This document shows, piece by piece, positions 32,673 through 52,395 of a DNA stretch of 64,000 nucleotides. Each line of letters starts with the position of its first letter. Position 1 is the first letter of the stretch. A program made the translations under genes and the position numbers. The notes beneath the pieces were generated by a model. It saw only the letters and a program-made list of their open reading frames with translations, was not told where the DNA came from and did not search any database. Origin of the DNA: Amphiura filiformis. Its lineage: Eukaryota; Echinodermata; Ophiuroidea; Amphilepidida; Amphiuridae. The stretch spans positions 434,001-498,000 of the forward strand of contig NW_027305509.1 of NCBI RefSeq assembly GCF_039555335.1, written 5' to 3'.

Positions 32673-32732
32673 ATGTCTCAGCCAGTGCTTGATATCAGAT
32701 TGAAAAAAGTCAACAAAATATACAATGAAGGG
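32673..32732 (+). CDS. VPS26C: VPS26C exon 1
   Basis: Twenty codons, starting MSQPVLDIRLKKVNKIYNEG and ending at ggg|gtaagt. The start is chosen because this ATG begins homology to the family's N-terminal beta strand (LDIKIKRANKVY in the human protein). The upstream context acaacacaATG is a reasonable animal start context. Confidence 0.93.
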
Positions 32733-35700: not shown

Positions 35701-38700
35701 AATCCATATCTTCAATATGAAAGGTCAAAATTTTCAATTGATCGTTGGCTTTTCCTCCCAGCTACATACACTTTAAGAATATATCATTAGATTTATAAAA
35801 TTTACTTCGAGGACTGTTATATCAAAAATGTGAAAAATATCAAATTTTAATAATGTGTCATAAAATTTGTATTATATCGATCGTGAATTTCAAAAAATGA
35901 AAATTATTTGATATCAGAAAGACATTCTTCGTATTCAGAATGCAATTCGATATGTCTGATGTGCTCTCATGTCCGACAAAAAATACTGTCGAAACGCTCA
36001 AAACACTCATTCTATATCCCTTAAGCAACGTCAAGGGACTATCTTTGAAATGTTGGAAACTCTGACGATTCATTTGGGGGGTATTGACTTATTAAATGAG
36101 GTATACAAACCAAAGCAATAACGTGTTGACATGAATGTCAAGTTTGTTAGGATCGGTTTAATTACTTTACACTGTAAATTATACAAGTGTTTAGGATTTC
36201 TGTAAAACTTTTTAAACACTGCAAGGTGTAAAGGTCTTTATAATGTACAAAATGAAGTTTTACTAAAATGTGTCTTTTTGTTTAATATTCAGGACACGCT
36301 AGCAGGTGTAGTGGTCGTTGCAAGCAAATCAGATGTACAACATCAAGGCATTACGCTGACAGTAGATGGCTCTGTTAACTTACAACTCAGCTCTAAGAGT
36401 GTTGGTCTCTTTGAAGCTTTCTATAACTCACTCAAAGTAAGTAACATGACAGATGTACAATGTAGTAAGCTTTCAATGTAAGGTCTTGTTTATGTAGTGG
36501 ATGTACAGCCCACATTCCTATAGAGGTTGTGCATATGACGCGTCATACCATATATGGCGCCTGGCGGACTACTCAAATGCATTCAACAAAAGCATGATTG
36601 CAATCTACCACGACAGTTCCTCTAACATACATAACAAAATGCACTACGCCATGATTACAGTGAAGGACACCGGTTCAAATCCTTTGTTTGGAGCCAATCA
36701 ATAATTTCACGCACAACCTCTATTGAGCGAGGATGACAATTTTGTCATACTTGTCTGTTTACAAACAGAGAGGTAGACAAAAGACCTGTCTAAATGGTTC
36801 CGGTTAAATCCAAACACTAAAGTATCAGAAGGATGTTCCACAATAGAGTGATTCACACAGCATATGAATAGGGGATTAAAAAGCTGTGAAGAGTTTTCAT
36901 GTGCGTCTTTTGTCCCGTTTGCCATCAAGATTTCGAAGGGAAACAGTTCAGATCCAGATGTCAGTTTAAGAATATTTTGATCTGGGACTGGATATTCGGA
37001 CTATTGTTCATGCAGTTTCAATTGCTCTACCACATTATTTGACTTTATATACTTCATTAATATATTCTTGTTCATTGATTGGTTAAAAGTGGATCACATG
37101 ACCAAAAATAGTTCTACCATCAGTACTCCTATCCGTAAATAGTACCTCTAAGCCGTAAATAGTATTTTCAATGTCCCGGATGAGCCGTAAATAGTACCTC
37201 CAAGCCGTAAATAGTACTTTTGACCATGCCTTCAAGGCGTGCGCGCGCATTCGATCGACGGAACAGTTCACGCACGCTTGAAACTGCCATAGCATCATTT
37301 CGCTGCTGTAATTGGTTAGCCCGATTTTAGGCTATTCGATTTTTTGAAGGGTAGGTTGTGCTTAAATTAGCCGTGTTGTTCACTCAGGATAGAAGCGGGA
37401 GAGTCAAAACGTCAAATAATTTTCTTTTAACCAATCAATGAACAAAGAACATATTAATTAAGTATATAAAACAAATATATACTGCCTTTATTCGAAGTTC
37501 TGGTTAAAACTATGGTCCCTCGTTGAGATCAATTAATACTATTTTCCTTCGGGCTGCGCCCTCAGGAAAATAGTACTATTGATCTCACCTCGGGCCCATA
37601 GTTTTAACCAGAACCTCTCATGGCAGTATATATTTGTATAATGAAACTTGGTCAGAGAGACTAGTTCCATTTTCATAATTTTGTGACTAGCATTCTCAAT
37701 TTTAAAATCACATGAAAACTTGATGAGCTGTTATGTGTACAATTGGATTATGACATAGAATGATCCCTGAGTGAAACTGAGATGGGCTGGTGATTTATTA
37801 CAAAAATATGTACATTTCCTAAGTTTCACTTACATTACTGTTTTGAAATCAATTTTGTTGAGACAAATTGCCCGTTTCCATTGAGTATTGCTCATTTTGC
37901 AGCCGCTACCTGAGAGAATCGCCCCATTACCTCATGGCCCCTGTATTCTTTGAGCCCTGATAAACAACCCCTCTGTCAAAACTCAAAAGCCAAACAATTA
38001 TCTTTTTATCTGGGAACATATTAAGTGAACCTAATTATTTTTCACATTGTTTTTACAGCCAATACAGCTTCTCAACTATATTGTACCCGTCTCCAAACCA
38101 GGCAAGATTCCAGCAGGAAAGACAGAGATTCCATTTGAATTGCCATTGAAACCCAAAGTGAACAAATCACTTTATGAAACATATCATGGAGTGTTTGTTA
38201 ATGTCCAGGTATGATATAATATTGGATGGTTTCAGAGCAATACCAGATTATATTGGATGAACTATCAGGCATGAGAATTTTCAGGCTTTTGCCTGAATTC
38301 AGGCAGTTTTGTTGTCCAAATTTACACATTTTTACGTTCCCTCCTGGCATAAACATTGACCACTCCCTTATCTTTATATTACAGTATACCAGCAAAGTAG
38401 AAATGAAAGAGCCATTGCTAGCTAAGGACCTTGGTAAAACAGTAGAGTTTATTTTGCGTCCCCCTCCTGGCATAAACACTGACCGCTCCCTTATCTTTCT
38501 ATTACAGTACATGTATGCCATCAAAGTAGAAATGAAGATGTCATTGCTAGCTAAGAACCTTGGTAAAACAGTAGAGTTTATTTTGCGTTCCCCTCCCACC
38601 ATAAACAATGACTGCTCCCTTATCTTTCTATTACAGTATACCATCAAAATAGAAATGAAGAGATTCTTTCTGGTTAAGGACATTAGTAAAACAGGAGAGT

Positions 38701-41700
38701 TTATTTTGCGTCCCCCTCCCACCATAAACAATGACCGCCCCCTTATCTTTCTATTACAGTATACCATCAAAGTAGAAATGAAGAGGCCGCTGCTAGCTAA
38801 GGACCTTGGTAAAACAGTAGAGTTTATTTTGGAATATAAAGATCAGAAGGAGAAAGCACAGCCTAAAGCAGTTCCATTCACAATAACACCAGAGTCATTA
38901 CAGAATGTTAAAGATGTAAGTATCCTTTTCACATCGGTGTCGACTGCAGACAACAAGTTCCAAATTTTCTTTAAAATTTCAAAAATGTCAGAATTGTGCA
39001 TTTCCATGACCATATTTGGAATCAGCTTGAAAAATGCATTAAAATGAGTACAAACAAGTCTAGTATTGGTTTAAATGCCCATCACTTTTTAAAACTGACA
39101 GTGATTGTATTGGTCTGATTCTCTGATAACATCCCCTCTGAAAATGGTGTATTCTCATGGTCCAGGCAACCAATTATAAATTAAATACAAGGAGAGTGGA
39201 ATTAAATCTGAATGAATCTTAAGATGTTACCAATTCAATTCATTATTATGTTTTGATGAAACCAATTGTGTGAAAATATTGGATCCAACACAATAATGAT
39301 AAAATTGGATGCTTTGGAGTTTTAAAATATTGGACTCAACTACGTCTCGTCCAATATTTTAAAACTCATAGCTCGATCAATAAATATGGACTCAATCAAT
39401 CCAATTTTATATCAAACTTGGTTTGAAGTCATACCCCAGTAAGTCAGGTGGTATAGGACATGTGACGTACAAGGCTGATGAAACTAGAAGCCTGACATCC
39501 TGTTCAAAATAGACTGTTAGCAGTTACAAATTGAAAAACAATATTCTTACAGTTCGGTGCTTTGACACAACATTACACATTTAGAATTGTTTGTGAAGAT
39601 TTCATGATTATGTGTTAATCCAATGGCGACGTCAAAAATGGCGATATCACATCTGACACCCCCTGCCAGTAAGTTACCACCGCCGGGAATTGAACCTTAG
39701 ACATCATGCACCAAAGGCAAGTACCCTAACCATTAGCCTATGGAGTCCCTTCATTTCAGATTGTTAATGGTCACTGAATCTTTTCCTTTTTACAGAAGGG
39801 TGGTCTTCCAAAGTTTTGTGTGAAAGGTAGATTAGACTCCGCCATATGCTGCATCAAGAATCCCTTGACAGGCCATGTAGTAATAGAGCAGTGTGATGCA
39901 CCAATTAAATCTGTGGAAATACAACTTGTTAGAGTGGAAACATGTGGCTGTGCAGAAGGCTATGCTAGAGATGGTAAGTGACAAATAACTTCAGATGATG
40001 TCAAAGGTCAGACTTAAATACTTTTATGATAGCTCATTCAGTGATGTTGATAGGCATTGGATGGAAGGTTTTGTCCATTTATATTTATATGTGTATATAC
40101 ATGTATTCACTGCTGTGTTTAAGCTCCACATGCATGATAATTAATTGACAAGAATCAAATATCAAGAAGCAATCATACAGAATTTGTCACTCATTGAACA
40201 ACAGCTTTTTTCCCTCTTTTGGGCAAAAAACTTTGACTGTCCAAAGATGAGTGCAATACACAGATTTATTGGTTGAGCTATCAGTATTTCAAATATTGGG
40301 TGAAACAAAGCCAAGCACAATATTAATTGTTACAACCAGAAGGCGAGATCAATAAATTGGTGTATAAAACCCAAGGCCTAGGCCCTGTAAATTTTGTGTT
40401 CACTTTGAAATTAGAAAAAACATACAAGACTTTGAAACATACATGTACATGTATTACAAAGAAATAGTATTTATTGAAGGTGAGTGTATCTGGAGGTCAT
40501 AATGCATTTCAAGTTTAACATCATATTCATGCTATTTGATTTTCAGCTACAGAAATCCAGAACATCCAGATAGGTGAAGGCGATGTGTGTAGAGGGCTGA
40601 CTATTCCTATCTATATGGTGTTCCCTAGACTCTTCACATGTCCTACGTTAGCAACTAGTAATTTCAAAGTTGGTAAGTTTGTGTAGAGGGCTGACTATCC
40701 CCATCTATATGGTGTTCCCTAGGCTCTTCACGTGTCCTACGTTAGCAACTAGTAATTTCAAAGTTGGTATTAAAGTGTGTGTAGAGGGCTGACTATCCCC
40801 ATCTATATGGTGTTCCCTAGGCTCTTCATGTGTCTTACGTTAGCAACTAGTAATTTCAAAGTTGGTATTAAAGTGTGTGTAGAGGGCTGACTATCCCCAT
40901 GTATATGGTGTTCCCTAGGCTCTTCACGTGTCCTACTTTAGCAACTAGTAATTTCAAAGTTGGTAAGTGTGTGTAGAGGGCTGACTCTCCCCATGTATAT
41001 GGTGTTCCCTAGGCTCTTCACGTGTCCTACTTTAGCAACTAGTAATTTCAAAGTTAGTAAGTGTGTGTAGAGGGCTGACTATCCCTATCTATATGGTGTT
41101 CCCTAGGCTCTTCACGTGTCCTACGTTAGCAACTAGTAATTTCAAAGTCGGTAAGTGTGTGTAGAGGGCTGACTATCCCCATCTATATGGTGTTCCCTAG
41201 GCTCTTCACGTGTCCTACGTTAGCAACTAGTAATTTCAAAGTCGGTAAGTGTGTGTAGAGGGCTGACTATCCCCATCTATATGGTGTTCCCTAGGCTCTT
41301 CACGTGTCCTATGTTAGCAACTAGTAATTTCAAAGTCGGTAAGTGTGTGTAGAGGACTGACTCTCCCCATGTATATGGTGTTCCCTAGGCTCTTCACATG
41401 TCCTACTTTAGCAACTAGTAATTTCAAAGTTAGTAAGTGTGTGTAGAGGGCTGACTATCCCTATCTATATGGTGTTCCCTAGGCTCTTCACGTGTCCTAC
41501 GTTAGCAACTAGTAATTTCAAAGTCGGTAAGTGTGTGTAGAGGGCTGACTATCCCCATCTATATGGTGTTCCCTAGGCTCTTCACGTGTCCTACGTTAGC
41601 AACTAGTAATTTCAAAGTTGGTAAGTTTGTGTAGAGGGCTGACTATCCCCATCTATATGGTGTTCCCTAGGCTCTTCACGTGTCCTACGTTAGCAACTAG

Positions 41701-44700
41701 TAATTTCAAAGTCGGTAAGTGTGTGTAGAGGGCTGACTATCCCCATCTATATGGTGTTCCCTAGGCTCTTCACGTGTCCTACGTTAGCAACTAGTAATTT
41801 CAAAGTTGGTAAGTGTGTGTAGAGGGCTGACTATCCCCATCTATATGGTGTTCCCTAGGCTCTTCACGTGTCCTACTTTAGCAACTAGTAATTTCAAAGT
41901 TGGTAAGTGTGTGTAGAGGGCTGACTATCCCCATCTATATGGTGTTCCCTAGGCTCTTCACGTGTCCTACTTTAGCAACTAGTAATTTCAAAGTCGGTAA
42001 GTGTGTGTAGAGGGCTGACTATCCCCATCTATATGGTGTTCCCTAGGCTCTTCATATGTCCTACGTTAGCAACTAGTAATTTCAAAGTCGGTAAGTGTGT
42101 GTAGAGGGCTGACTATCCCCATGTATATGGTGTTCCCTAGGCTCTTCACGTGTCCTACGTTAGCAACTAGTAATTTCAAAGTCGGTAAGTGTGTGTAGAG
42201 GGCTGACTATCCCCATGTATATGGTGTTCCCTAGGCTCTTCATGTGTCCTACGTTAGCAACTAGTAATTTCAAAGTTGGTAAGTTTGTGTAGAGGGCTGA
42301 CTATCCCTATCTATATGGTGTTCCCTAGGCTCTTCACGTGTCCTACGTTAGCAACTAGTAATTTCAAAGTTGGTAAGTGTGTGTAGAGGGCTGACTATCC
42401 CTATCTATATGGTGTTCCCTAGGCTCTTCACGTGTCCTACGTTAGCAACTAGTAATTTCAAAGTTGGTAAGTGTGTGTAGAGGGCTGACTATCCCTATCT
42501 ATATGGTGTTCCCTAGGCTCTTCACGTGTCCTACGTTAGCAACTAGTAATTTCAAAGTTGGTAAGTGTGTGTAGAGGGCTGACTATCCCTATCTATATGG
42601 TGTTCCCTAGACTCTTTACTTGTCCTACGTTAGCAACTAGTAATTTCAAAGTTGGTAAGTGTGTGTAGAGGGCTGACTATCCCCATGTATATGGTGTTCC
42701 CTAGACTCTTTACTTGTCCTACGTTAGCAACTAGTAATTTCAAAGTTGGTAAGTGTGTGTAGAGGGCTGACAATCCCCATCTATATGGTGTTCCCTAGAC
42801 TCTTTACTTGTCCTACATTAGCAACTAGTAATTTTAAAGTTGGTAAGTGTGTGTAGAGGGCTGACTATCCCCATGTATATGGTGTTCCCTAGACTCTTTA
42901 CTTGTCCTACGTTAGCAACTAGTAATTTCAAAGTTGGTAAGTGTGTGTAGAGGGCTGACAATCCCCATCTATATGGTGTTCCCTAGACTCTTTACTTGTC
43001 CTACATTAGCAACTAGTAATTTTAAAGTTGGTAAGTGTGTGTAGAGGGCTGACTATTCCTATCTATATGGTGTTCCCTAGACTCTTTACTTGTCCTACAT
43101 TAGCAACTAGTAATTTTAAAGTTGGTAAGTGTGTGTGAGGGCTGACTATCCCCATGTATATGGTGTTCCCTAGACTCTTTACTTGTCCTACATTAGCAAC
43201 TAGTAATTTCAAAGTTGGTAAGTGTGTGTAGAGGGCTGACAATCCCCATCTATATGGTGTTCCCTAGACTCTTTACTTGTCCTACATTAGCAACTAGTAA
43301 TTTTAAAGTTGGTAAGTGTGTGTAGAGGGCTGACTATTCCCATCTATATGGTGTTCCCTAGACTCTTTACTTGTCCTACATTAGCAACTAGTAATTTTAA
43401 AGTTGGTAAGATGAGAAGACATTATGTTTCCAGTTGTACATTGGACTATTCCAGTTAAAATCCATACACCCCATATGAAATACATGAACTTAATCTCCCA
43501 CACAGGGAGTGCAGATTTCAAATTGAGTCACATATTCAGGCAACCTCGTTTGAAATCTACACCATCTGTGTGGGAGATTAAGGTGATGTTTTCCGTAGGG
43601 GTGTATGAATTTCAACTGGAATAACGTACCCATATTTAGCTGATTATAATTTGGTTCGCATCAAGTTCGATAGTGACGTACATGCGTATTTCGCTCGCCG
43701 CAGTATCGAATCGCTCGCGTAAAGTTAAACGCCCTGAGTGTACACACACACGTAGAGGGGCGGTTTGTCAGCACGCTTGCGGCGCAACCGCGAAAAAGCA
43801 TTTACGTCACTACCGAATTTTGAGTGAACCAAATTATAGGAATAAATTTCTTTTAAGCTTTTTTAGTGTGGTGGGGCCCTGGTTAGTGGCATCATGCATG
43901 ACCATACAGGGTGTCCCAGAAAAAATTACCGAGTGAATGAAATTGAACGTAAGTCGAGAAATAGACATCAGAGTCAAAAAATTTAAAATGTAGCGCATAG
44001 CCTATTTTATTGTGCATCACATGTGAAGTTTTTATTTGATTCGGTTGACTGGTTGCGAAGATATTATCAATTACATAATGCGTGCATTAATGCAGTTCAT
44101 TCCAAGTTTGATCAACAGTCGCTTTTTCATACTCGCTCACCGCTTCCTAAAGATTGCGTGTCTCAATAAATTGAGTTCACATTATATATTTTGTAATCCG
44201 ACGGTGTTATATGTTATTCATGCTTTCACTGAAGATGAATAACAGTTTGTCCGAGAAAACTTTGATTTCTGCAATTGGAAGCTTTCCAACTTTAATTCTT
44301 CAGGTTGCGCAACTATGTTATATTTTAACTTTTCAAAGAACATTTGAGTCAAGAATGACAATGATCAAGTGCTCACAGTTTTACTTGTGGTTTTTGATAC
44401 CATGCAACATTAATATTGAAATTTAAACTTTGCATTACAATCTTTTGGAAATATTCCAAAACCGTTAATGTTTGCGAGAATTTGTTTAAGCCACCTGGAA
44501 TACTTTATGCAATAATTCTTTATGCAACATTGATATCAACATTAACGAAAAAAGATATTTACAAGTACCGAGCATCATCTTACATGCAAGCTTTCATTTT
44601 CAATATCGTGCAGGTTTTCAAATTTGAGCGAAACGTAATTAAATGTTTTGCAAGAAATAGAATGTTTAAAAAGAACAAAAAGGATTTCACAGAACAAATT

Positions 44701-46274
44701 ATGAAGCCGGCCCATTGACAGTTAACCAATAGTGTGCATTGTGTTGAATGATCTTTCTTTCAAACTTGGAATGAAGTGAATTGACGCATGCGTTATGTAA
44801 TCGCTCATTTCTTCGCAATCAGTCAACCAATTCCAGTAAAATTGACATATAATGCAGAATAAGATGGGCTACACGCTGATTTTTAGATTATTAGATTTTG
44901 ATGTCTATTTCTCGAATTACGCCCAAATTCATTCGCCCGGTAATTTTTTCTGGGACACCCTGTATGTCTCAAAAAAATCCTAAACAAGTATTTGCGAGTA
45001 CTGAAAATGCACTCCTTAAAGTATAATAAGTGTCATTTCCCACCTGAAACAAGTATTGGCATTGATACATTCAAACGAAATCTAGTCCAATTTTATTTTG
45101 ATTTCTGTGCCTGTGTGTGTACGAATCAGAACTGGGGACGTCAGTGTACAGCCAAAATAACCTAGGAATACCTTCTTTTCAACTGTACGGACCCTAAATA
45201 TATCTTTTTCAGCTTTTTTTGTTTTTGATACCCTATTCATGATTACATATAGTACCTGATCATGAATAATATACCCTTTTTAAGTGCATCTTTGGTCACG
45301 TATGATACCCCCTAATCAAAGATTGGGCTTCAGCGGACTAATCCATTTAAAGTCCACTCCCATAGTGGAAGATTTTGGAAATATCTTCCACAGGGGAAGA
45401 ATGAATATGAAATGGAAGTAGCACATTAAACTCATTCTCTCTCTCTGGAAGATTCAGGTTGAATCTTTGTCAGATGGTGCATGGAATTTAAAGTTGCCTA
45501 ATGTGCTCATTCCATTTGAAATTCATAGTCGATCCCCATGCAGAATATTTTCCAAAATCTTCCACAGGGGGAGTGTAGATTTTAAATGGATTAACGGATG
45601 GGGTATGAATGTTTGGACAGTATTCATTGTGGGACATTAGAGCACATCAGCCCGGCACATCAGACATCGAATTGCATTCTGAATACGAAGAATGTCCTTC
45701 TGATATCAAATAATTTTGATTTTTGAAATTTGCAATGTAATACACATTTTATGGCAAATCATTAAAAATTGATATTTAACAGTACTGGAAGTAAACTTTA
45801 TAAATCTGATGATTTATACTAGTCTTGAAGTGTATGTAGGTGGGATGAAAAGCCGACGATCAATTGAAAATTTTGACCTTTTCTTATTGAAGATATGGAT
45901 TTTTTCCCCCAAACACCAAAAAAATTAGGTCTTTTTGTGCAAAAAAAATCCATATCTTCAATATGAAAGGTCAAAATTTTCAACTGATCGTCAGCTTTTC
46001 CTCCCAACTACATACAACTTAAGAATATATCATTAGATTTATAAAATTTACTTCAAGAACTGTTATATATCAAAAATGTGAAAAATATCAAATTTTAATA
46101 ATTTGTCATAATATTTGGATTGGTTACACAGATGAATAAATCATGTAATTAACAATGATTTTAACCAATCACATTTGTTGTTTTATTTCAGAATTTGAAA
46201 TCAACTTAGTGGTGGTACTACATGATGATCATCTCATTACAGAGAACTTTCCCATCAAGCTGACAAGATTTTGA
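32673..46274 (+). CDS. VPS26C: VPS26C (DSCR3), Retriever complex subunit, 7 coding exons
   Basis: Spliced CDS join(32673..32732, 36293..36436, 38059..38208, 38760..38915, 39796..39973, 40547..40672, 46192..46274): 897 nt, 298 residues plus stop, close to the roughly 297 residues of vertebrate VPS26C. Every junction is GT-AG and the frame closes exactly (intron phases 0,0,0,0,1,1). The product is an arrestin-fold VPS26 paralogue. Recognisable family stretches are GVVVVASKSDVQHQGITLT (exon 2), GKTEIPFELPL and YETYHGVFVNVQ (exon 3), LLAKDLGKTVEF (exon 4), VRVETCGCAEGYARD (exon 5), PIYMVFPRLFTCPTL (exon 6) and DHLITENFP (exon 7). In animals VPS26C joins VPS35L and VPS29 in Retriever, which with SNX17, the CCC complex and WASH recycles integrins and other cargo from endosomes. 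Two exons have amplified splice boundaries (listed separately). The 5' end is 589 bp from the satellite. Confidence 0.95.
33198..33437 (+). repeat. Dispersed repeat, copy in intron 1
   Basis: Shares tgtttacaaacagagaggta, then cacaatag, ggattaaaaagctgt, ttgccatcaagatttc and ctgggactg in the same order as 36,752-37,003. Roughly 240 bp of moderately diverged interspersed repeat of unknown family. Confidence 0.75.
33439..33532 (+). repeat. Satellite-monomer relative behind a G/C hairpin (1)
   Basis: A hairpin-forming segment ctgagggggatgtgcccccc is followed by gcaaaatgaagacc and then attgaagccatttgctggac, which resembles one diverged 48-bp satellite monomer (aaaatgaagg, attgaagtcatttggtg). Confidence 0.65.
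33653..33742 (+). repeat. Satellite-monomer relative behind a G/C hairpin (2)
   Basis: The best preserved relative: gtctgaggggggatgttccc with cctctcag, then gcaaatgaagg and ccaattgaagccatttggtg, then a gatattgacac tail. Against the satellite unit the main difference is loss of the gaaggc stretch. Confidence 0.75.
33787..33832 (+). repeat. Satellite-monomer relative (3)
   Basis: gaaaatgaaggcccaatc followed by aaagcctttcttggaccatt. It is more diverged than the neighbouring copies and has no hairpin in front. Confidence 0.5.
34216..34284 (+). repeat. Satellite-monomer relative (4)
   Basis: ggtgtctgagggggaaattt, then acaaaatgaaggtccac and ttgaagccatttggtgcatc. A single unit in the same orientation as the array. 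Confidence 0.65.
34330..36024. mobile_element. TTAAGGG-ended fold-back element, split by a nested insertion
   Basis: The left end ttaagggctggggtatgaac leads into acatcagacatatcgaattg, and the right half is its inverse (caattcgatatgtctgatgt near 35,945) ending tatatcccttaa at 36,024. The arms are about 300 bp, so most of the element is inverted repeat. The same family recurs at 45,591, 47,368 and 48,834. A separate 1.0-kb element sits in its centre. It lies within VPS26C intron 1. No transposase is visible. Confidence 0.8.
34627..35640. mobile_element. Nested 1.0-kb TIR element with ATTG duplication
   Basis: The ends ggccgtgtgtcctgaactcg and cgaattcaagatgcacgacc are imperfect inverted repeats, and ATTG flanks both sides (34,623-34,626 and 35,641-35,644). 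Removing the element restores the host element's usual attgaagat sequence. The interior holds short pieces of other repeats such as tacagggtgtcccaaagta near 34,994. No coding sequence was seen. Confidence 0.65.
36293..36436 (+). CDS. VPS26C: VPS26C exon 2
   Basis: Acceptor tttaatattcag|gac, donor ctcaaa|gtaagt. It codes residues 21-68 (DTLAGVV to FYNSLK), including the family stretch VQHQGITLTVDGSVNLQLS. Phase 0 at both ends. Confidence 0.95.
36520..36723. mobile_element. 204-bp TIR MITE in intron 2
   Basis: The left end tagaggttgtgcatatgacg and right end ttcacgcacaacctcta form inverted repeats of about 14 bp, flanked by TA. Non-coding. Confidence 0.6.
36752..37003 (+). repeat. Dispersed repeat, copy in intron 2
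   Basis: Second copy of the intron 1 repeat, in the same orientation, with small insertions such as aaaagacctgtctaaatgg. Confidence 0.75.
37044..37471. mobile_element. 428-bp TIR element in intron 2
   Basis: The left arm, from tttatatacttcattaatat through ttcattgattggttaaaag, is inverted on the right as cttttaaccaatcaatgaac through ttaattaagtatataaaa, about 46 bp. The interior contains a short tandem of agccgtaaatagtacctc units near 37,130-37,220. Confidence 0.7.
37471..37637. mobile_element. 167-bp palindromic element in intron 2
   Basis: The arms caaatatatactgcc plus ttctggttaaaactatgg on the left pair with ccatagttttaaccagaac plus ggcagtatatatttg on the right. A central hairpin ctattttcc/ggaaaatag surrounds gggctgcgccct. 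It abuts the preceding TIR element directly. Confidence 0.75.
38059..38208 (+). CDS. VPS26C: VPS26C exon 3
   Basis: Acceptor gtttttacag|cca, donor gtccag|gtatga. It codes residues 69-118, including KPGKIPAGKTEIPFELPL and LYETYHGVFVNVQ, which are strongly conserved in the family. Confidence 0.95.
38268..38305. repeat. Fragment of the caggcatgagaat family
   Basis: caggcatgagaattttcagg followed by the palindromic stretch cttttgcctgaattcaggca, in intron 3 just before the exon 4 acceptor block. Related ends occur at 53,471, 53,622 and 57,955. Confidence 0.5.
38366..38759 (+). repeat. Three extra copies of intron 3 end plus exon 4 start
   Basis: Three tandem duplicates of 123, 129 and 123 bp precede the full exon 4. 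Each contains a pyrimidine-rich tract (cccttatctttctattacag or close) and the first part of the exon (KVEMK..LLAK.LGKTVEFIL), but not the exon's 3' part or a donor. All unit lengths are multiples of three and no stop interrupts the frame through the whole block, so every acceptor joins exon 3 in frame. The copy at 38,508 has 6 extra bases after the acceptor. The copy at 38,637 is the most diverged (RFFLVKDISKTGEF). The segment may be spliced out, or included as extra modules. Confidence 0.9.
38760..38915 (+). CDS. VPS26C: VPS26C exon 4 (canonical acceptor)
   Basis: Acceptor ctattacag|tat, donor aaagat|gtaagt. It codes residues 119-170 (YTIKVEMKRPLLAKDL to ITPESLQNVKD), which aligns over its whole length with the vertebrate protein. 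Three upstream acceptors at 38,385, 38,508 and 38,637 open onto the same frame and would lengthen the exon by 375, 252 or 123 nt. The shortest form is chosen because it matches the family length. Confidence 0.85.
39243..39414. repeat. Dispersed repeat with internal palindrome (copy 1)
   Basis: Begins ttattatgttttgatgaaac and ends atccaattttatatca. The central arms gttttaaaatattggactc and ccaatattttaaaactc are inverted. A close copy lies at 56,702-56,902. It is in VPS26C intron 4. Confidence 0.75.
39650..39752 (-). mobile_element. tRNA-derived SINE fragment
   Basis: On the minus strand, a tRNA-like segment with an A-box-like taggctaatggttagg (complement of 39,725-39,740) and a perfect B-box match ggttcaattcc (complement of 39,686-39,696), about 33 bp apart. 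No intact acceptor stem or cloverleaf is evident, so it reads as a SINE head or tRNA pseudogene and not a functional tRNA. Confidence 0.5.
39796..39973 (+). CDS. VPS26C: VPS26C exon 5
   Basis: Acceptor cctttttacag|aag, donor gagatg|gtaagt. It codes residues 171-229 plus one base, including VEIQLVRVETCGCAEGYARD, a near-identical family signature. Confidence 0.95.
40547..40672 (+). CDS. VPS26C: VPS26C exon 6
   Basis: Acceptor ttgattttcag|cta, donor aagttg|gtaagt. It completes residue 230 and codes to the first base of residue 272 (TEIQNIQIGEGDVCRGL, then PIYMVFPRLFTCPTLATSN). Reading past this donor reaches a stop within a few codons (gtaag ttt gtg tag in frame), so the first donor is the only one giving full-length protein. 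The last 90 or so bases plus the donor are the founder of the adjoining 94-bp minisatellite. Confidence 0.93.
40580..43410 (+). repeat. 94-bp minisatellite made from exon 6 end and its splice donor
   Basis: About 30 tandem copies (counting the exon itself) of a 94-bp unit. Each runs from gtgtgtagagggctgact through ctatatggtgttccctag and ttagcaactagtaatttc to aaagttggtaag. The period is 94 bp at most steps, for example donors at 41,151, 41,245 and 41,339. About 28 units keep a gtaag donor-like site, and units two and three have gtatta instead. Later units (from about 42,600) share ctagactctttacttgtcc, a separate sublineage. The unit is not a multiple of three and carries stops, so it is intronic decoy material and not extra protein. 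Confidence 0.95.
43446..43623. mobile_element. 178-bp palindromic MITE, family B
   Basis: attccagttaaaatccatac at the left is inverted at the right as gtatgaatttcaactggaat. Inner arms aatctcccacacagg and tgtgtgggagatt also pair. Related copies or pieces lie near 54,650, 55,483, 57,165 and 60,938. It begins 36 bp after the last exon-6-derived minisatellite unit. Confidence 0.8.
43907..44962. mobile_element. 1,056-bp long-TIR element with TA duplication
   Basis: The ends cagggtgtcccagaaaaaat and attttttctgggacaccctg are inverted and flanked by TA on both sides. Inverted homology continues for about 200 bp on each side, including cggttgactggttgcgaaga against its inverse at 44,811-44,828. The CAGGGTGTCCC ends and TA target suggest a Tc1/mariner-type non-autonomous element (inference). 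The open frames inside (the longest is 100 codons at 44,416) match no transposase motif I recognise. Confidence 0.8.
45341..45593. mobile_element. 253-bp fold-back element
   Basis: taatccatttaaagtccact with tggaagattttggaaatat on the left pairs with atattttccaaaatcttcca and gtagattttaaatggatta on the right. It lies directly against a TTAAGGG-family element. VPS26C intron 6. Confidence 0.75.
45591..46118. mobile_element. TTAAGGG-family fold-back element, right end lost
   Basis: Left part ttaacggatggggtatgaat, gacattagagcacatcag and gaagtgtatgtaggtgggat. Centre gatatggattttttccccca against aaatccatatcttcaatatg. The right arm stops near ttgtcataatatttgg without the terminal ccctta. It ends about 75 bp before VPS26C exon 7. 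Confidence 0.75.
46192..46274 (+). CDS. VPS26C: VPS26C exon 7 (terminal)
   Basis: Acceptor ttttatttcag|aat. It completes residue 272 and codes EFEINLVVVLHDDHLITENF then PIKLTRF and a TGA stop at 46,272-46,274. The end matches the vertebrate C-terminus (DHLITENFPLKLCRI in human). Confidence 0.94.
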
Positions 46275-51724: not shown

Positions 51725-52395
51725 TTAACCAATGAGGTGGCCTGTTTATTGCTTCATTGTATAAAAGGACAACCCACTTCATTCATTTCATTGGTTAATC
51801 AAATGTGTGTTTGACATTTAACCAATGAGGTGGCTTGTTTCTTGCTTCATTGTAAAGGAGAACCCACTTCATTCATTTCATTGGTTAATCAAATATGTGA
51901 TGCAATCAAGCAAAATCAGTCGGAACTCGGCAATCATAAATTTTCAGTTTCTTAAAGGAATAAAAAGCATTAACAAAGCTGGATTTTGCCGAAAACCCCA
52001 TTGAAATTGAACAACCAGTTCCTAAGATATGAGCAATTAAAGAGTTTCCAAAATAACAGGAAACAAAAGGAAATATTTCCTTTGTTTGGCTATATCTCAA
52101 AATCAGTATTTCCGAGTTCCGATTGATTTTGCTTGATCGCATCACATATATGTTTGACATTTGACCAATGAGGTGGCTTGTTTCTTGCTTCATTGTAAAG
52201 GACAATCCACCTCATTCATTTCATTGGTTAATCAAATAATGTGTTTGACATTTGACCAATGATATGGTTTGGTTCGTGCTTTGGAAAAACAATCCAGTTC
52301 ATTAACTTCAATGTGTGATTCACATTTCATTAATGTGTGGTTCACATTTCATTGACCAATGAGTTGGCTTGTTTCTTGCTGGTTTGGATGGAACC
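51725..52395. repeat. Imperfect tandem repeat with ccaatgaggtggc units
   Basis: About five diverged units of roughly 85-90 bp share accaatgaggtggcttgttt, cttgcttcattgtaaagga and ttcatttcattggttaatca. The series is split by an inserted fold-back element at 51,893-52,150. Confidence 0.75.
51893..52150. mobile_element. 258-bp MITE inside the tandem repeat
   Basis: tatgtgatgcaatcaagcaa then aatcagtcggaactcggc at the left is inverted at the right as tccgagttccgattgatttt then gcttgatcgcatcacata. TA is present at both edges, consistent with a TA-targeting element. Confidence 0.8.

Follow-up and report, generated by a model that had tools for sequence, protein, structure and literature searches.

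How might a conserved gene keep its splicing in order when the end of one of its exons, together with the splice donor, stands 30 times over in the genome, and where did those copies come from? A locus of Amphiura filiformis raises this question. It lies in the window, i.e. the whole stretch of 64,000 nucleotides that was analysed, in which we found a complete VPS26C gene of seven coding exons, with GT/AG introns and an open reading frame across the joined exons:

32673..32732, forward strand: VPS26C exon 1, coding part, with the start codon at 32673
36293..36436, forward strand: VPS26C exon 2
38059..38208, forward strand: VPS26C exon 3
38760..38915, forward strand: VPS26C exon 4, counted from the last acceptor of the exon-4 array
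39796..39973, forward strand: VPS26C exon 5
40547..40672, forward strand: VPS26C exon 6, 126 nt, bounded by its own acceptor and donor 1
46192..46274, forward strand: VPS26C exon 7, coding part with the stop codon

The predicted product of exons 2–7 matched human VPS26C (8p0x_P) at 439 bits (E 5.9e-131) over residues 2–277 of 278, as against at most 38 bits for the next-best chains, and the full seven-exon product matched Pfam Vps26 at 180 bits (cut-off 27). Judged by this predicted protein, the gene is VPS26C rather than VPS26A or VPS26B over nearly its whole length. The seven-exon model and the human match bear out an earlier, sequence-only reading of the locus, which had named VPS26C exon 6 as the source of the array. 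No second VPS26C copy was found within the 64-kb window. A satellite with a 48-bp unit, present in about 672 copies, occupies the left half of the window (1–32084) and stops 588 bp short of the VPS26C start codon.

Tandem Repeats Finder placed the exon-6 array at 40584–43410, with a period of 94, 30.0 copies, 96% matches and a score of 4945. This agrees with the roughly 30 copies of a 94-bp unit, each with an exon end and its donor, that had been described before; the start, given there as 40580, needs correction to 40584, and the length, given as 2.7 kb, measures 2.83 kb. We cut the array into 30 units at the fixed motif GGGCTGAC/GGACTGAC. Among the 29 unit spacings, 26 were of 94, two of 98 (after units 2 and 3) and one of 93 (after unit 27). 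The array divides as follows:

40584..40677, forward strand: unit 1, made up of the final 89 nt of exon 6 (to 40672) and the donor GTAAG
40678..43410, forward strand: units 2–30 of the 94-bp array, presumably within intron 6

Unit 1 is the founding copy and presumably the working one. Behind the exon-like part, the donor reads GTAAG in 28 of the 30 units, the number of sites counted earlier, and GTATT in the remaining two. These, units 2 and 3 (40766–40885), adjoin the presumed working donor, and a 4-bp longer junction turns their donors into GTATT. Directly behind the array lies a MITE-like inverted repeat (43447–43623, arms 77% alike) with relatives near 54.6, 55.5, 57.2 and 61 kb, and a 90-bp unit is repeated 1.9 times at 51725–51899.

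The array would go back to a tandem duplication in which the final 89 nt of exon 6 were copied together with the first 5 nt of its donor, and local unequal exchange or slippage may then have expanded it to 30 units. A microhomology had been proposed for the first duplication. That argument proved circular, for it is unit 2, and not the original intron, that begins with the quoted ‘flanking donor’ gtaagtttgtgtagaggg; the original intron appears to start after unit 30 (gtaagATGAGAAGAC). Read by eye, the outer ends of the array are GGCGA followed by TGTGTGTAG on the exon side and GTAAG followed by ATGAGAAG on the intron side. These true ends have at most a nearby GATG in common, which, again by eye, would fit only with one further base lost.

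A second array sits on the acceptor of exon 4:

38348..38831, forward strand: acceptor-type array of intron-3 end plus exon-4 start, 123 bp repeated 3.9 times

Its four TTACAG acceptors end at 38384, 38507, 38636 and 38759 (steps of 123, 129 and 123), and all four run in frame and stop-free to the exon-4 donor. Between 32 and 64 kb, the exon-4 and exon-6 arrays are the only ones with a period of at least 30 and at least three copies; both lie on VPS26C exon boundaries, one of acceptor type and one of donor type. The sequence-only reading had left out this acceptor array, as well as the coding signature of the exon-6 copies described below.

Tandem duplications of this kind are known. In lancelets, minisatellite-like duplications across intron/exon boundaries, of both acceptor and donor types, have been described as mirages (PMC3087553, PMC3902484), with further examples in PGBD5, Adh and TnC (PMC3902484). 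RT-PCR is reported to suggest that their splicing is undisturbed, length and somatic instability are described, and they have been proposed to give rise to new introns (PMC3087553). In both VPS26C arrays the units span the exon–intron boundary and include the splice signal, and the exon-6 array is a new, long member of this already known kind. It shares with the mirages described in Adh3, BflGb6, BflGb9, PGBD5 and TnC the boundary minisatellite, the repeated splice signals and the concerted turnover. It differs from what is described for them in having 30 units, as against 6 and 3 in two BflGb6 haplotypes, in that VPS26C carries both array types, and in the coding signature of its copies.

The minisatellite unit of human IFI6 is much shorter than that of VPS26C. 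This gene (G1P3, 6-16) likewise has a minisatellite that repeats a splice donor, but its downstream repeats are described as serving as donors, yielding three mRNAs (PMC4526556, citing Turri 1995). A survey of human segmental duplications reports 162 boundary alignments, of which 27 intron modifications were kept after inspection; there, too, minisatellite expansion shifts exon/intron borders, but the variable repeats average four 30-bp units and lie in recently duplicated genes (PMC2812944), in contrast to the 30 units of 94 bp found here in a gene without a second copy in the window. A literature search for VPS26C/DSCR3 together with minisatellite or tandem repeat brought no mention of the gene among the matches listed.

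Which donor does VPS26C use? A script spliced exon 6 onto exon 7 at every donor in turn; the outcomes given here are those of donor 1 and, among the later ones, of donors 2–6, 29 and 30. Donor 1 yielded the full protein, and all seven of these later donors ran into the same stop codon:

40684..40686, forward strand: stop codon met if donor 1 is unused, the same for donors 2–6, 29 and 30

For these later donors, the stop sits 80 nt or more ahead of the exon end. The earlier claim that the first donor keeps the protein and later ones stop early is thus confirmed for these seven. Exitron-like retention, also suggested, must keep the frame open; read-through past donor 1 adds four residues and then meets this stop, so we rejected it. 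As a crude measure of donor strength we used a simple energy of pairing with the U1 sequence. Donor 1 scored -9.1. Of the 29 later donors, 22 pair more strongly, two tie with it and five are weaker; the GTATT donors of units 2 and 3 were the weakest in this model (-4.2), and the other five donors of VPS26C ranged from -7.2 to -12.2. Because most later donors pair better with U1, donor 1 is not singled out by strength. Its proximity to the exon-6 acceptor might single it out. Most likely, splicing still takes exon 6 between its own acceptor and donor 1 and removes units 2–30 along with intron 6; we infer no function for these units.

The copies hold other splice options, all of them possibilities in the DNA only. 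In each of the 29 units from 2 to 30, an AG stands ahead of an in-frame 78-nt stretch and an in-frame 21-nt stretch that end at the donor position. A 44-nt pseudo-exon behind CCTAG was discarded, as it carries a stop (units 1, 7, 13 and 26). Acceptor quality, taken as pyrimidine content alone and scored for CCTAG and TTAG, averaged 0.63 and 0.73, respectively, compared to 0.71–0.82 in the six real acceptors.

Turnover by local homogenisation, which characterises mirages, is seen in the exon-6 array. Adjacent units (2–30) differ on average at 2.64 of 78 positions; shuffled orders gave 4.34 (sd 0.35), and none of 10000 was as low. There are 21 distinct unit types, and units 2–21 and 22–30 form two ordered subfamilies that have no bases in common at columns 45, 51 and 54. 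The exon itself, unit 1, is a mixture without a private base, and its nearest relatives are units 19–22 (three differences) rather than its neighbour, unit 2 (four).

The differences among units are mostly synonymous. We considered the 78 exon-derived columns and placed each change type at random for the expectation; this test was post hoc and covers few sites. Of the 17 distinct variants, 12 were synonymous, against 5.9 expected (exact P 0.002; 0.001 in 5000 draws), and the count was still 12 of 17 when the exon unit was left out. With CpG transitions removed, 10 of 13 were synonymous (P 0.0006), a persistence that excludes CpG hypermutability as the source of the excess. The two wrong frames gave 2/16 and 3/16. 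Variable columns were concentrated at third positions (11/26, compared to 4/52 at first and second positions; Fisher P 0.0005). Taken alone, units 22–30 showed the excess (5/6, P 0.006), and units 2–21 gave 5/10 (P 0.21, not significant). Mean pN/pS was 0.08 over all pairs, 0.05 between subfamilies and 0.23 within units 2–21, with a pS between subfamilies of 0.30 on 18.7 sites. Over the tested codons, 19 of the 30 units encode exactly the exon protein; one common nonsynonymous variant, Ile to Met, occurs in eight. The common variants that are synonymous lie at columns 18, 21, 24, 45, 51, 54, 63, 81 and 87, numbered from the GTG codon.

Such a coding signature is unexpected, as units 2–30 are presumably intronic; in copies that diverge silently, nonsynonymous changes would be expected to outnumber synonymous ones two- to threefold. 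The share of synonymous changes was 11 of 13 among variants present in at least three units and one of four among rarer ones. The shared variants are mostly synonymous and therefore probably arose while the sequence was coding; the rarer, later mutations look unconstrained. The exon-4 array behaves otherwise under the same test. Measured against the real exon, 7 of its 20 distinct differences were synonymous, with 6.4 expected (P 0.47), and pairwise comparison of the three copies gave 3, 2 and 5 changes that were synonymous, against 3, 4 and 7 that were not. Its differences from the real exon look neutral, with no coding signature. Literature searches aimed at other questions turned up no published coding constraint in boundary arrays.

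We also simulated array evolution, starting 480 runs (three models, four ratios, 40 runs each). The observed synonymous share appeared in none of the 400 runs that attained the observed diversity, in which the exon stood outside the exchanges (160), took part in them (160) or was copied into the array (80); a further 80 polar runs never attained that diversity. The simulation adds little to the exact test, because the mean number of variants exceeded 17 in all ten finished settings.

Given these results, we consider it probable that the array is a long donor-type mirage whose units were fed by diverged coding exon-6 alleles and are spliced out with intron 6. Exon-6 alleles that protein constraint had kept in check as they diverged would have supplied the units, probably through unequal exchange between homologues, and recent amplification would have followed. 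The simplest remaining source of the shared variants would be such diverged coding alleles, or paralogues. Several observations count against this explanation: a pS of 0.30 between subfamilies is high for the alleles of one species, donor 1 is weaker than most later donors, the exon is not closest to unit 2, the excess within units 2–21 is not significant, and simulated copying from the exon, as a single lineage, did not produce the excess. Lancelet heterozygosity is given as 3.2 to 4.2% (PMC12862219); a comparable level here would help an allelic source but may be too little for a pS of 0.30.

That depth of coding-type divergence would be accounted for if paralogous VPS26C genes, not alleles, had supplied the units by ectopic exchange. 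We regard this as quite unlikely, with no second VPS26C within the 64-kb window. The synonymous excess might also be chance and the array an ordinary neutral mirage. The test was post hoc on 17 variants at few sites, and units 2–21 show an even split; against this, the excess is improbable under the exact test, specific to the coding frame, stronger without CpG transitions and matched by the concentration at third positions, and the exon-4 array looks neutral by the same test, all of which makes chance an unlikely explanation. Artefactual assembly of the array or of its length would be harder still to credit and strikes us as highly improbable. Tandem arrays do assemble badly, and an aberrantly assembled mirage is noted in the lancelet globin paper (PMC3087553), but 21 unit types, two subfamilies in ordered succession and a pattern tied to the reading frame are not what stacked reads would be expected to yield, although the copy number may still be inexact.

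The remaining alternatives give the copies a role. Under the usual rule of nonsense-mediated decay, a stop as far before the exon end as that met from the seven later donors above would permit decay. If later donors or retained units were partly used, the early stop would send transcripts to decay and copy number could tune VPS26C output; the better U1 pairing of most later donors favours this, and the two nearest, in units 2 and 3, are weak. We think such competition unlikely, since published mirages are reported without disturbed splicing and the energy model is crude. That the units are translated as in-frame cassettes or replacement exon ends, and selected for that, is suggested by the 78-nt stretch behind an AG in every unit from 2 to 30, which coincides column for column with the part bearing the coding signature, and by the 21-nt stretch. 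However, the AG of the 78-nt stretch comes about 16 nt after the previous unit’s junction with no evident pyrimidine tract, and the arrestin-like fold would probably be disturbed if a 26-residue segment were repeated, so that this reading is very hard to believe. Selection at the protein level, present or until recently, could also keep the units as a reserve of in-frame 78-nt exon copies, with contraction of the array repeatedly replacing the working exon end or copies being spliced in at times. Were this true, an exon would have its own coding reserve in an intronic minisatellite; we hold it to be very unlikely. Feeding by coding alleles remains the explanation we favour, and one property of the exon-6 array, its coding signature, is not fully explained.

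For the question of how one donor is chosen among 28 that are nearly identical, VPS26C in A. filiformis provides a natural test, and this conserved gene bears an acceptor-type array as well. Should other boundary arrays show the coding signature too, coding alleles would be what feeds such arrays, and the arrays could preserve a record of earlier exon variation. This would bear on the way they arise, and likewise on their proposed role as a source of new introns (PMC3087553).
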